Source: Collinsella aerofaciens (GTDB taxonomy: Bacteria; Actinomycetota; Coriobacteriia; Coriobacteriales; Coriobacteriaceae). From it: DNA of 64,000 bases. The stretch's first letter is position 1. Each line of letters begins with the position of its first letter. A model generated the notes under the pieces. The model was not told the origin of the DNA and searched no databases. It worked only from the letters and a program-made list of their open reading frames with translations. This document shows, piece by piece, positions 30,942 through 55,348 of this stretch. The position numbers were made by a program, and so were the translations under genes. The DNA lies in contig NZ_OY725717.1 in NCBI RefSeq assembly GCF_963360655.1, forward strand, positions 1 to 64,000. Direction: 5' to 3'.

Positions 30942-31045
30942 GCCGTTCTGCCGGAGCCGCCCTTATATCATTCCATGCTCAAACATTCTCGCTGCGCTGC
31001 GAAACTGCGCGTGGAACGATATAAGGGCGGCTCCGGCAGAACGGC
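30942..31045. repeat. Fold-back element A (family 1)
   Basis: Perfect 28-bp arms at 30942-30969 and 31018-31045 enclose a 48-nt core. The core starts ATTCCATGCTCAAAC and ends GCGCGTGGAAC, extending the stem with TTCCA/TGGAA. The same core occurs inverted in element B, but the outer 22 bp of the arms are unrelated between the two copies. It begins 10 bp after the glycosyltransferase stop; no T-run follows. Confidence 0.9.
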
Positions 31046-31122: not shown

Positions 31123-31171
31123 AGTAAGCCGATGCGACAAAGGGACAGCCCCTTTGTCGCATCGGCTTACT
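31123..31171. repeat. Perfect 22-bp hairpin between fold-back elements A and B
   Basis: Arms 31123-31144 and 31150-31171 with a 5-nt loop; the stem includes GACAAAGGG. The loop region reads GGGACAG, a string also found at 52654-52660 between elements C and D. Confidence 0.9.
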
Positions 31172-31204
31172 AGAAAAGTAAATATTGTTTCAAGCGAGTA
31201 GCCG

Positions 31205-31307
31205 CCCGCCCGGGGCTTACCTATATCGTTCCACGCGCAGTTTCGCAGCGAGCGAAGCGACGCGAGAATGTTTGAGCATGGAATGATATAGGTAAGCCCC
31301 GGGCGGG
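31205..31307. repeat. Fold-back element B (family 1, inverted relative to A)
   Basis: Perfect 23-bp arms at 31205-31227 and 31285-31307 enclose a 57-nt core. Read on the minus strand the core matches element A from ATTCCATGCTCAAAC through CTGCGAAACTGCGCGTGGAAC, apart from about 9 extra bases in the middle. Only TATATC next to the core is shared between the arms of A and B. It ends 16 bp before the dut stop codon. Confidence 0.9.
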
Positions 31308-31323
31308 AGGGATACGAGCGCCC

Positions 31324-50641: not shown

Positions 50642-52312
50642 CTAAACCTCCATGACGACCGGGATGATCATCGGACGGGTGCGCGTACGGCTCCAGATAA
50701 AGTTGGAAAGCGAGTCGCGCACGGCCTTGCGAACGGCATCGGAGCCGCTGCTCGTAAAGCTGAACTTGCCCTTCTCGATCGTCTTCATGATGGACGCGGA
50801 GGCATCCTCGGAGAACTGATCGTCGATGGCAAACGAGACACCGCGGCCCGAGAACTCGATGGCCTCGATCTTCTTGTGCTTAAGAGAGACGATAGCGACA
50901 GCCGTGACCATACCGTCGTTGGCGAGCTTCTGGCGATCGCGCAAGACAATGGGGTCGGTATCGCCGATACGCAGGCCGTCGACGTAGACGACGCCAGACT
51001 CAACGGGCGTACCACGCTTGACGATACCGCCACGCATCTCGAGCGTGTCGCCGTTGTCGAGGATAAAGATGTGGTCGTCCTTGAGCCCCATCTTGCGCGC
51101 CAGCTGGGCATGAGCGCGCAGGTGAACGGCCTCGCCGTGGACCGGCATAAAGTACGTGGGCTTAGCCATGGCCATCAGGAGCTTGAGCTCCTCCTGGCTG
51201 CCGTGGCCCGAGACGTGGACGAGGGCACGGTTCTTATCCCACACGTCGCAGCCAAGCTTAGCCAGGCTGTTGACGACCTGCTGGACGGCCTTCTCGTTGC
51301 CAGGAACAGGAGTCGCCGAGAGAATGACGGTGTCGCCCTCGTGGATGGAAAGCGTCTTGTGCTCGCCGTTAGCCATGCGCGACAGAGCCGACAGCGGCTC
51401 GCCCTGAGAGCCGGTGCACATGACGACGATCTTGTCGTCGGGCAGGTTGTCGATATCGAAGGCATCGATGATATCGGCATCATCGATGTTGAGGTAGCCG
51501 AGCTCGCGAGCCACACGGGTGTTGGTGAGCATGGAGCGACCGGTCACGACGACCTTGCGGCCGCACTTGCGCGCGGCGTCGCAGATCTGTTGCAGACGAT
51601 GGATGTGGCTCGAGAACGACGCGACGAACACACGGCCCGGGGCATTCTTGATGGCGTGCAGCAGATTGGGACCAACCTCGGCCTCAGACTTGGTAAAGCC
51701 GGGAACCGTAGCGTTGGTGGAGTCGGAAAGCAGCAGGTCGATGCCCTGCTTGGCAAAGCGACTGATAGCGGCATAGTCGGGCGTGACGCCGTCGATGGGC
51801 GTCTGGTCGAGCTTAAAGTCGCCGGTGTGCATGACGGTACCCTGGTTGGTGCGGATGAACACGCCCAGAGCACCCGGAATGGAGTGCGTCATCGAGAAGA
51901 AATCGAGCGAGATGCCGCCAAGATTAACATGGCTGCCGCCCTTGACTTCGCGGAACTTAGGCGTACGGATGCGGAACTCGGAGAGCTTGCCCTCAATAAA
52001 GCCAAGGGTCAGCTTGCTGGAGAAGATAGGCACCTTGTTGTTGAGGTCCTGCAGCAGGTACGGAAGCGAACCGGTATGGTCCTCATGACCGTGGGTGACG
52101 ATGATGCCGCGGAGCTTTTCCTCGTTCTCCAGAACGTAGGTGTAGTCGGGCAGTACCAGGTCGATACCGGGCTGAGAGTCGTCGGGGAACATGAGGCCAG
52201 CGTCGACGAGCACCATGTCGTCGCCGCACTCGAAGACCGTCATGTTCTTGCCGATACCATCAAGGCCGCCGAGCGGGATGATCTTCAAGGGAGATGATTT
52301 TTTAGCTGCCAT
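50642..52312 (-). CDS. rnj: Ribonuclease J
   Basis: Metallo-beta-lactamase endo- and 5'-3' exoribonuclease of 556 aa. THGHEDHTGSLPYLL near residue 80 gives the metal ligands, with HTGDFKLDQTP, CTGSQGEP and VSGHGSQEELK in the beta-CASP part. ATG 52312 (MAAKKSS) is preferred; longer in-frame extensions have no homology. The upstream gap holds fold-back elements C and D. ftsK follows at once. Confidence 0.96.
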   Translation of the reverse strand: MAAKKSSPLKIIPLGGLDGIGKNMTVFECGDDMVLVDAGLMFPDDSQPGIDLVLPDYTYVLENEEKLRGIIVTHGHEDHTGSLPYLLQDLNNKVPIFSSKLTLGFIEGKLSEFRIRTPKFREVKGGSHVNLGGISLDFFSMTHSIPGALGVFIRTNQGTVMHTGDFKLDQTPIDGVTPDYAAISRFAKQGIDLLLSDSTNATVPGFTKSEAEVGPNLLHAIKNAPGRVFVASFSSHIHRLQQICDAARKCGRKVVVTGRSMLTNTRVARELGYLNIDDADIIDAFDIDNLPDDKIVVMCTGSQGEPLSALSRMANGEHKTLSIHEGDTVILSATPVPGNEKAVQQVVNSLAKLGCDVWDKNRALVHVSGHGSQEELKLLMAMAKPTYFMPVHGEAVHLRAHAQLARKMGLKDDHIFILDNGDTLEMRGGIVKRGTPVESGVVYVDGLRIGDTDPIVLRDRQKLANDGMVTAVAIVSLKHKKIEAIEFSGRGVSFAIDDQFSEDASASIMKTIEKGKFSFTSSGSDAVRKAVRDSLSNFIWSRTRTRPMIIPVVMEV

Positions 52313-52501
52313 AAGTGAGTGTTGTTTCCTTTCTTCGAAACAGGGTCTGGAACAACCGACGGGGCGCTTCTGGCAAACCGACCGCCGGGAACGTACAACA
52401 ATGCATCGCAGAGTCGATGCAATAACCATAGTATGATACCCATTTGTACAACAACAGACCACCCATGCATCAAAGCCCCATCTGAACCGGTCTATCCCGC
52501 C

Positions 52502-52644
52502 GGTCTGGGGCCATCGGGGGCCGGGGCGGGTTAAGTTTGCTGCTCTACAGTCCTGCACAAGACGGAAAGCACATTAAGTGCTTTCCTTTGCGTGCGGAAC
52601 TCGCGACAAACTTAACCCGCCCCGGCCCCCGATGGCCCCAGACC
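52502..52644. repeat. Fold-back element C (family 2)
   Basis: Perfect 38-bp arms at 52502-52539 and 52607-52644 enclose a 67-nt core. The core starts CTGCTCTACAGTCCTGC and ends CGTGCGGAACTCGCGA; in its centre a 9-bp hairpin GGAAAGCAC/GTGCTTTCC surrounds ATTAA. The outer arm is very GC-rich, and the arm ends in TTAAGTTTG next to the core. GGGACAGG stands 10 bp outside the right arm. Confidence 0.93.
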
Positions 52645-52771
52645 TGCCAAAAAGGGACAGGTTTATTTTGGTCGGTTTTAACTGGGGATATGCCAAGAGC
52701 ACGGCTATCGACAATTCAGAAAAAAGAAAACTGAATAGACTGTCTGACAAAATCGAAACCCGCACCAACCA

Positions 52772-52920
52772 GCCCTTTTGCTATTCCCGGCGGGGTCCGC
52801 GGATAAAGTTTATCGCGAGTTCCGCACGAACAGGAGGCCACTTAATGTGGCCTCCGTCGTGAGCAGGACTGTAGAGCAGGAAACTTTATCCGCGGACCCC
52901 GCCGGGAATAGCAAAAGGGC
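52772..52920. repeat. Fold-back element D (family 2, inverted relative to C)
   Basis: Perfect 40-bp arms at 52772-52811 and 52881-52920 enclose a 69-nt core. On the minus strand the core matches element C at both ends; the central hairpin is GGAGGCCAC/GTGGCCTCC around the same ATTAA loop, so four pairs differ from C with compensation. The arms are unrelated to those of C except for AAGTTT at the core. The outer 8 bases of the right arm are part of the pnp terminator. Confidence 0.93.
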
Positions 52921-52966: not shown

Positions 52967-55213
52967 TTACTCGGCGTCGTGGTGACGGCGGGGCTTGCGG
53001 CCTCCGTTGTCGCCGGGACGGCGCGGGCGGTCGCTGCGCTCGGAGCGCTCGCGACGCGGACGCTCACGGCGCTGGAAGTGCTCGCCGTCGCCCTCGGAGG
53101 CACCCTCGACGCGAGCCGGGGCCTCGGGCTTATCCAGACGATCGAGCGAAATCTTGCCGCGATCGTCGACCTCGATGACGACGACCTTGACCTCGTCGCC
53201 CACGTTGAGGACGTCCTCGACCTTCTCCACGCGGCCCTTGGCGACGCGGGAGATGTGCAGCAGGCCGTCCTTACCGGGCAGCAGGTTGACGAAGGCGCCG
53301 AAGGGCTGGATGGAGACCACGCGACCGGTGTACTCCTCGCCCGGCTCGGGAACCTTGATAATGAGCTTGATACGCTCGACGGCCTGGTCGACAGACTCGC
53401 CGGTGCCGCCGACAAAGACGGTGCCGTCCTCCTGGATGTCGACCGAGGCGCCGGTCTCGTCCTGGATACCGCGGATGACCTTACCGCCGGAACCGATGAC
53501 GTCGCGGATCTTGTCGGTCGGAACCTGGATGGAGACGATGCGCGGGGCGGTGCTGCGCGTGGTGTGGCGCGGCTCGGGGATCACATCGAGCATCTTCTGC
53601 AGGATGAAAGCGCGACCCTCCTTGGCCTGCTGCAGGGCGCGGGCCAGGATGTCGAAGGTGAGGCCGGTAGCCTTGTTGTCCATCTGCAGGGCGGTGATGC
53701 CCTCGGTGGTGCCGGTGACCTTAAAGTCCATGTCGCCCAGGAAGTCCTCGAGACCCTGGATGTCGGACAGGACCACGGTCTTGCCCTCCTCCTGGATCAG
53801 GCCCATGGCGATACCGGAGACCGGGCGCTTAATGGGCACGCCGCCGTCCATAAGGGCGAGCGTGGAGCCGCAGGTCGAAGCCATCGAAGAGGAGCCGTTG
53901 GACTCCATGACCTCGGAGACGACGCGGATGGCGTAGGGGAACTCGTTCTCGTCGGGGAGCACCGGAAGCAGGGCGCGCTCGGCCAGGTTGCCGTGGCCGA
54001 TCTCGCGGCGCTTGGGGCTGCCCATGCGGCCAGTCTCGCCGGTGCAGAACGGCGGGAAGTTGTAGTGATGCATGTAGCGCTTGCCCTCGGTAGGCTCGAT
54101 GGTATCCAGACGCTGGCCCTCGTTGAGCATGCCGAGCGAAAGAACCGAGAGCACCTGGGTCTGGCCACGCTGGAACAGGCCGGAGCCGTGAACGAGCGGC
54201 AGGTAGTTGTCCTTCACCATGATGGGGCGGATCTCATCGGCGGCACGGCCGTCGACACGCTCACCGGTCTCGACGACCATGGTGCGCATGGCCTTCTTCT
54301 CGAGCTTCTTGAGCGCCACGGGGATCTCGCGCTCCCATGCGGCCTGCTCCTCCTCGGTGAACTCGGCGCGGATGGACTCCTTCAGAGCCTCGACCTTACC
54401 GATACGGGAGAGCTTGTCGGCGTCACGAAGGGCGGCTGCCATCTCGTCGTAGTGGGCGAAGATGCGCTCCTGGACCTCCTCGACGGGCTGGTCGAGCGGG
54501 TACTCCTTCTTGACGATGGGGCCGTTGACCTGCTCCCACTCGGCGACGAACTCGTCCTGAGCCTGGCAAAAAGCGGCAAGGGCCTCCTGGCCAAACTTCA
54601 TGGCGGCGAGCATGTCGTCCTCGGAGATCTCCTCGGCGCCGGCCTCGACCATCGAGATGAAGTCGGCGGATCCGCCCAGCTCCAGGTCCAGATCCGAGTT
54701 CTCGCGCTCCTCGTAGGTGGGGTTGACGATAAACTCGCCTGTCTCCACGTTACGGCCGATGCGCACGCAGGCAAGCGGGCCCTCGAAGGGCACGCCGCCA
54801 AGCGTCATGGCCAGGGATGCACCCATGACGTTGATGACATCGAAGGGGTTGACCTGGTCGGCGACGAGCGAGGTGGCAACGATGTGCACCTCGTTGCGGA
54901 AGCCATCCGGGAAGCTCGGGCGAATCGGGCGATCGATCATGCGGGCCGTGAGCGTGGCCTTCTCGCTGGGACGGCCCTCACGCTTGAGGTAGCCACCCGG
55001 GATGCGGCCGGCTGCGTACATCTTCTCGTTGAAGTCGACGGTCAGCGGGAAGAAGTCGTAGTTCTTGCGCTCCTTGGAGACGACCACGGTGTCGAGCATC
55101 GTGGTGTCGCCCTGCTTGACCAGGCAGGCGCCGGTGGCCTGCTTGGCAAGCTCGCCCGACTCAAAGGTGTAGGTCTTGCCGTACAGCTCAAAGGTCTTGG
55201 ATACGAGTGTCAT
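52967..55213 (-). CDS. pnp: Polyribonucleotide nucleotidyltransferase
   Basis: Phosphorolytic 3'-5' exoribonuclease of 748 aa. It has two RNase PH domains, a KH domain (RDVIGSGGKVIRGIQDETGA) and an S1 domain (GEEYTGRVVSIQPFGAFVNLLPG), then a charged Arg/Glu-rich tail of about 50 residues. ATG 55213 has AAGGAG 6 nt upstream; the in-frame extension to 55318 runs through a leader hairpin and is rejected. It follows rpsO, the common order. Confidence 0.98.
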   Translation of the reverse strand: MTLVSKTFELYGKTYTFESGELAKQATGACLVKQGDTTMLDTVVVSKERKNYDFFPLTVDFNEKMYAAGRIPGGYLKREGRPSEKATLTARMIDRPIRPSFPDGFRNEVHIVATSLVADQVNPFDVINVMGASLAMTLGGVPFEGPLACVRIGRNVETGEFIVNPTYEERENSDLDLELGGSADFISMVEAGAEEISEDDMLAAMKFGQEALAAFCQAQDEFVAEWEQVNGPIVKKEYPLDQPVEEVQERIFAHYDEMAAALRDADKLSRIGKVEALKESIRAEFTEEEQAAWEREIPVALKKLEKKAMRTMVVETGERVDGRAADEIRPIMVKDNYLPLVHGSGLFQRGQTQVLSVLSLGMLNEGQRLDTIEPTEGKRYMHHYNFPPFCTGETGRMGSPKRREIGHGNLAERALLPVLPDENEFPYAIRVVSEVMESNGSSSMASTCGSTLALMDGGVPIKRPVSGIAMGLIQEEGKTVVLSDIQGLEDFLGDMDFKVTGTTEGITALQMDNKATGLTFDILARALQQAKEGRAFILQKMLDVIPEPRHTTRSTAPRIVSIQVPTDKIRDVIGSGGKVIRGIQDETGASVDIQEDGTVFVGGTGESVDQAVERIKLIIKVPEPGEEYTGRVVSIQPFGAFVNLLPGKDGLLHISRVAKGRVEKVEDVLNVGDEVKVVVIEVDDRGKISLDRLDKPEAPARVEGASEGDGEHFQRRERPRRERSERSDRPRRPGDNGGRKPRRHHDAE

Positions 55214-55226
55214 TGTTCTCCTTAAC

Positions 55227-55249
55227 CCCGCAGACCCCTTGTCTGCGGG
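55227..55249 (-). promoter_or_regulatory. Hairpin in the pnp leader
   Basis: CCCGCAGAC (55227-55235) pairs perfectly with GTCTGCGGG (55241-55249). It ends 14 nt before the pnp start, just ahead of the ribosome site. In E. coli a hairpin in the pnp leader is cut by RNase III for autocontrol; a similar role is possible here but unproven. Confidence 0.55.
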
Positions 55250-55315
55250 CTTCTCATGTGACGCGGGCCCCCTGCCCCCGCCACGCTTCAGAGCGTGATT
55301 GTTCGCGCCCTTACA

Positions 55316-55348
55316 CAAAAAGAGCGCCCCGCTGCGCAGGACGCTCTT
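55316..55348 (-). terminator. Terminator after rpsO
   Basis: On the minus strand AGAGCGTCC pairs with GGGGCGCTCT (one mismatch) around a short loop, followed by TTTTTG. It lies 14 bp beyond the rpsO stop and would separate rpsO from pnp. Confidence 0.82.

Follow-up and report, generated by a model that had tools for sequence, protein, structure and literature searches.

The stretch of DNA analysed here (the window) covers positions 1 to 64,000 of contig NZ_OY725717.1 of Collinsella aerofaciens, and between its genes pnp and rnj two long inverted repeats, elements C and D, keep their internal pairing rather than their sequence. Paired changes are commonly taken as proof of folded RNA. The question raised by this locus is whether such symmetry is maintained by selection on an RNA or by copying within DNA. 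The features of the locus, in window positions, are:

52499-52647, + strand: element C, whole inverted repeat with 41-nt arms
52502-52539, + strand: 5' arm of C, forming 38 perfect pairs with 52607-52644
52540-52606, + strand: conserved core of C
52542-52553, + strand: left half of the loop motif of C, GCTCTACAGTCC
52564-52572, + strand: 5' side of the inner stem of C, with the loop ATTAA at 52573-52577
52578-52586, + strand: 3' side of the inner stem of C
52596-52605, + strand: right half of the loop motif of C, GGAACTCGCG
52607-52644, + strand: 3' arm of C
52772-52920, - strand: element D, whole inverted repeat with 40-nt arms
52881-52920, - strand: 5' arm of D in core orientation, its outer end overlapping the 3' half of the terminator-like hairpin of pnp
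52812-52880, - strand: conserved core of D
52847-52855, - strand: 5' side of the inner stem of D in core orientation, with the loop at 52842-52846
52833-52841, - strand: 3' side of the inner stem of D in core orientation
52772-52811, - strand: 3' arm of D in core orientation
52967-55318, - strand: pnp (polyribonucleotide nucleotidyltransferase), which shares the strand of D and lies upstream of it
50642-52312, - strand: rnj (RNase J family), downstream of C and D

A sequence-only reading of this locus had described C and D as fold-backs whose cores are alike at both ends, and both points are borne out: 38 perfect pairs are present in C and 40 in D, the arms of C extend over 52499-52539/52607-52647 (41 nt, 98%) and those of D over 40 nt (100%), and each strand of C and D folds about 15 SD better than its dinucleotide shuffles, with 0/200 shuffles folding equally well. 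The inner stems are GGAAAGCAC/GTGCTTTCC in C and GGAGGCCAC/GTGGCCTCC in D, so that three base pairs, rather than the four reported in that reading, are changed on both sides; the two elements are convergent, and the gap between them measures 124 bp instead of about 130-160 bp. D comes after the terminator-like hairpin of pnp, which its outer arm overlaps. Two facing copies occur at five places of the genome; a copy is truncated at one of these, and at one the copies are separated by 2.2 kb. At two of the five (L020 and L025), each copy sits after the stop codon of its own gene. A composite transposon was considered at L025 and rejected, as no recognised transposase was found by reading among the ORFs of the 2.2 kb between the facing copies. 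Positions 630-2640 of L025 hold a segment of about 2 kb with two ORFs, flanked by near-identical terminator hairpins and missing in genome G013; by eye, an ORF of L025 resembles a nucleotidyltransferase module. Next to C, at 52642-52686 of the window, there is a second small repeat (GACCTGCCAAAAAGGGACAGGTTTATTTTGGTC...), found at about 23 other places of the genome, some of them close opposite pairs.

The conserved core is about 70 nt long and asymmetric, with a two-part loop motif, GCTCNRACA...RAACTSGC, around the inner stem. From outside to inside, the layers are private arms (median length 29 bp, 10th-90th percentile 20-40), then the two-part loop (left half GCTCNRACA, right half RAACTSGC), next a short helix, AGTCC/GGAACT, in which one A is bulged (by eye), and finally the inner stem, roughly 9 bp long. 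The same loop motif is found in a second inverted pair of the window, at 31 kb:

30942-31045, + strand: element A, a short-form relative with the same loop motif
31202-31310, - strand: element B, a short-form relative with the same loop motif

The motif of this pair, TGCTCAAACA...AACTGCGCG, occurs twice in the window but never in 100 shuffles; it is common to the 31-kb pair and to members in other genera, being alignable with copies from Ellagibacter, Slackia and others, and two more copies of the short form are present in the genome. Since the loop motif is common to the 31-kb pair and the C/D family, both pairs belong to one superfamily; the opinion that the two cores are unrelated is thereby refuted, while the proposal that C/D and A/B form one class of element is supported. 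Between A and B, at 31123-31171 of the window, lies a hairpin AAAGGGACAGCCCCTTT with GGGACAG at its centre, and about eight similar places exist in the genome.

A search model built from 25 of the genome's copies (25/26 in the alignment, one truncated copy omitted) found 28 strong and two weak copies in the window's genome. Genes next to the copies match contigs of Collinsella aerofaciens, in keeping with a Collinsella genome. With copies on both strands counted together, matches were obtained in 41/58 related genomes and in 33/35 within Collinsella; the control genomes G001 and G025 gave no match. A pattern taken from both core ends occurs at at least 120 loci in named genomes, 80 of which were read more closely together with their gene ends, and 13 of the 120 obtained are labelled as coming from outside Coriobacteriia. 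The genera among the matches listed are Collinsella, Slackia, Adlercreutzia, Gordonibacter, Ellagibacter, Enorma, Parvibacter, Paraeggerthella and Aphodovivens, along with an Atopobium bin. Loci L123, L130, L136, L140, L143, L151, L160, L164 and L165 were set aside as chance matches before the counts, L204, L205 and L206 have no arms, and L217, from a Corynebacterium bin, is a proper element and was included. The Corynebacterium label of L217 reflects either transfer or mis-binning. The plasmid and phage collections contained no match to C, a single viral-contig match has no arms and was rejected as a member, and three hits with E of at most 10 came from Rfam, each scoring far below its gathering threshold. 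The family is one of dispersed chromosomal fold-back elements of Coriobacteriia.

The arms of the copies are private. Own arms pair at 0.93 (lowest 0.44), compared with 0.33 (highest 0.83) for arms swapped between loci, in a test of 91/98 arm groups that omitted copies at most 70 nt from a sequence end or with an arm score below 9. Across 16 genomes, the pnp-rnj site carries D in 15/16, and C is seen in 13, either whole or interrupted by the end of the contig, with G030 and G028 not readable for C; G013 has neither element, and its element-free allele may be a deletion between CCGGCGGG repeats rather than the ancestral state. At this site D occurs in two haplotypes and C with three types of arm, and the spacer varies along with them; the arms differ between genomes yet match internally, apart from hybrids with mismatched arms in G008 at C and in G026 at D. 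Among the nrdD loci read, an element follows the stop codon in G006, G028, G029, G005 and G032 with different arms, another fold-back occupies the spot in G021 and G016, and no copy of the C/D family is present there in G012 and G027. In other Collinsella species (L245, L249 and L071), another fold-back family (TTCCGCGGTTCTACCGAACCGCGGAACTG..., with different inner arms) sits at the same gene ends. Among same-locus pairs, arms and inner part are alike in 103 and both different in 157, the arms are intermediate in 65, alike arms accompany a different inner part in 22, and different arms accompany an alike inner part in 39; it can be seen that arms and inner part vary partly independently. The core orientation is never flipped at a locus (0/159). 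G000 holds a truncated copy that is similar to a complete one in G013 (L022 370-421 and L278); a deletion, about 5 kb in size, apparently has one end within the element.

The view that structure is kept rather than sequence, at the inner stem and at the outer arms, holds over 204 distinct copies. There are 63 distinct inner stems among 137 distinct cores, and with wobble-tolerant placement in 136 distinct cores, 1208 of 1224 inner-stem cells are Watson-Crick, 5 are G-U, 7 are A-C and 4 are other, so the inner stem stays paired in the other copies. G-C and A-T are both common at the same positions (57 and 78 at position 8, plus 2 G-T). For comparison, 22 of 340 pairs (6.5%) are G-U in 16 tRNAs from the same sequences. 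The outer-arm mismatches, comprising 41 G-T, 32 A-C and 48 other, are without wobble excess; an apparent bias of the arms to the other strand in a first count (G-T 63 vs A-C 108) was discarded, as it stems from the innermost ten positions (14 vs 66), where the A-C surplus is interpreted as a mismatch fixed in the motif. Comparing same-locus alleles that differ at no more than three positions gives 67 paired changes against 80 unpaired, the 80 single changes between the closest alleles being 35 G-T, 27 A-C and 18 other, and these counts are phylogenetically non-independent because the allele comparisons share ancestry. If pairing were under RNA selection, G-U would be expected as a common stage, and the mark of a structured RNA, covariation that passes through G-U intermediates in the strand being transcribed, was not found. 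The near-absence of G-U, together with paired changes in near-alike alleles, is read as homogenisation in DNA. Of the earlier proposal that covariation here would support a folded RNA or ssDNA, the paired changes stand and the RNA part is doubtful, given that G-U is nearly absent and the arm mismatches have no G-U preference. The data favour DNA-level homogenisation via hairpin template switching over folded-RNA selection alone.

Bacterial intergenic DNA often has fold-backs, and C and D might be just such inverted repeats, belonging to no family; this is already contradicted by the 28 strong copies, the core conserved across several genera and the shuffles, and it is virtually out of the question. 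A possible, if doubtful, explanation is a structured 3' UTR RNA, in which the core would be co-transcribed and fold, a protein on the loop motif would protect or mark the mRNA end, and pairing would be selected in RNA. With gene ends called by codon score, a same-strand stop codon lies at most 93 nt upstream in 55/95 arm groups, 42 of the 55 at 32-62 nt, compared with 13/95 having a stop on the antisense side, and 35/95 have one on neither side. This sense position close after stop codons is as expected of an RNA element. The loop motif is also conserved across genera, and a canonical terminator-like site lies within 350 nt at 14/33 element-bearing gene ends, being 3' of the element at 13 of these 33 ends, so that the element would be inside the transcript. 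However, 40/95 arm groups have no same-strand stop in reach, some copies are antisense directly upstream of a start codon (one such place is common to six species), no Rfam family scored above its gathering threshold, and the inner stems and arm mismatches lack the G-U pairs seen in the tRNAs. Stop-codon recoding was considered and dropped, as the stops before elements (TAG 29, TAA 20, TGA 6) are like the background (TAG/TAA/TGA 30/25/16 in the window and 97/70/30 in the Collinsella loci). That the elements are themselves an unusual type of transcription terminator is improbable: at one gene, a copy in G013 does occupy the place where G000 has a canonical terminator, but no T-run past the 3' arm was seen by eye in the copies read, and separate canonical sites accompany the elements at the gene ends just described, compared with 33/117 element-free non-coding gene ends.

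The elements could also be non-autonomous and mobile, REPIN-like, with a Y1 (HUH) transposase acting in trans to move them, an explanation that we consider quite unlikely. Over 58 genomes, Y1_Tnp and the element tend to be found together (33 with both, 8 with the element only, 4 with Y1 only and 13 with neither; p 7e-5), as they do inside the genus (30, 3, 0 and 2 in the same order; p 0.017), and the location of the copies is as described for REPs in PMC3733652. However, no association is present outside the genus (3, 5, 4 and 11; p 0.66), and the overall one is confounded by kinship; G005 (12 copies) and G032 (24 matches) carry the element and have no Y1_Tnp; and no genuine copy was found beside Y1 genes in the eight stretches scanned, which cover a subset of these genes, nor any match in plasmids or phages. 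A loose core match with four mismatches near a Y1 gene, L261, looked like chance. The motif GGGGACAG lies ahead of one Y1 transposase gene (L314), an arrangement known from TIRYT repeats (PMC3733652). In G000, a 1755-bp stretch (L292, C1:80900-82654) has 97.9% identity to Ellagibacter isourolithinifaciens, likely through horizontal transfer. Inside it, at 81840 of contig C1, lies a weak, decayed copy with uncompensated arm mismatches, which suggests that copies can travel with transferred DNA.

The family is similar to known repeats. According to PMC3733652, REPs and BIMEs are dispersed intergenic palindromes, often in opposite pairs and varying by paired changes, located near 3' gene ends between convergent or same-direction genes, and the C/D family likewise lies near gene 3' ends, as the 55 arm groups show. 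Unlike REPs, which have a GTAG/CGTC tag, the family has no consistent tag by eye, with CTAC/GTAG in some cores (CTGCTCTACAG) and GGAC, GGGC, GAAC or AAAC in others; REPs are given there as 20-40 bp, whereas the C/D family has longer arms and the asymmetric core, and its private outer arms differ from the shared stem and loop sequence that defines REPs. RAYT and TIRYT systems are recognised by copies flanking a Y1 gene, which were not seen in the eight stretches scanned. TIRtrons and TIRYT repeats (same source) resemble the family in being inverted, in some cases self-complementary and of moderate copy number, and Collinsella has Y1 genes; their GGGGWSAS motif is absent from the C/D core and fits the separate GGGACAG hairpins of these genomes. 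Quasipalindromes with template switching (PMC8604942; PMC7202029) share with the family one-step arm matching and clustered paired changes. As treated in PMC8604942, such switching is a mutation mechanism rather than the upkeep of a dispersed family, and the spacer inversion associated with it is not seen in the C/D family.

The explanation we prefer, with confidence and doubt evenly balanced, is that C and D belong to a REP-like family of fold-backs kept symmetrical by DNA copying through template switching, with a putative recognition factor for the folded core. The hairpin would form when replication or transcription leaves the DNA single-stranded, and DNA synthesis would then jump between the arms or the stem sides, carrying any change in one half over into the other. 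Such switching would hold arms and inner stem in Watson-Crick pairing during sequence drift and would yield paired changes in one step, with no G-U stage. Copies would also exchange with each other, spreading core variants, and arms and cores would therefore change partly independently. The loop motif and its orientation are presumably held by selection, with the putative factor recognising the folded core in DNA or at the transcript 3' end; any effect on gene expression would be equally conjectural. Several observations weigh against template switching. It has been reported (PMC8604942) that template switching homogenises arms and also inverts spacers, and since no inverted core was found, the explanation needs selection on orientation as well. 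In the closest alleles, single changes are slightly more numerous than double ones (80 vs 67). The scarcity of G-U could instead come from unusually strong selection for RNA stability, and an RNA role at gene ends could coexist with DNA copying. A rather unlikely variant is palindrome growth, in which about 86 nt (the core and the innermost 9 bp) would be copied and new outer arms would arise by fold-back synthesis, the flank being inverted across the core. In its support, four places in the genome share these 86 nt at 98.8-100% and have unrelated outer arms, and the 5' arm of D continues in line with the element-free allele of G013; against it, the arm sequence was not found in the element-free allele at two other places, and the G013 allele could be a deletion.

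Human-microbiome structured-RNA candidates have been reported (PMC8040213), 250 of them palindromic and 20 of these not predicted terminators. The sole Collinsella passage found there describes a 51-bp candidate before the L7/L12 gene, and the C/D family may be among the candidates of its supplementary table. The C/D family is a repeat at gene ends for which no earlier description was found in the open-access literature, its host belongs to a major group of gut bacteria, and it represents a natural test of how far DNA hairpin copying imitates RNA covariation.
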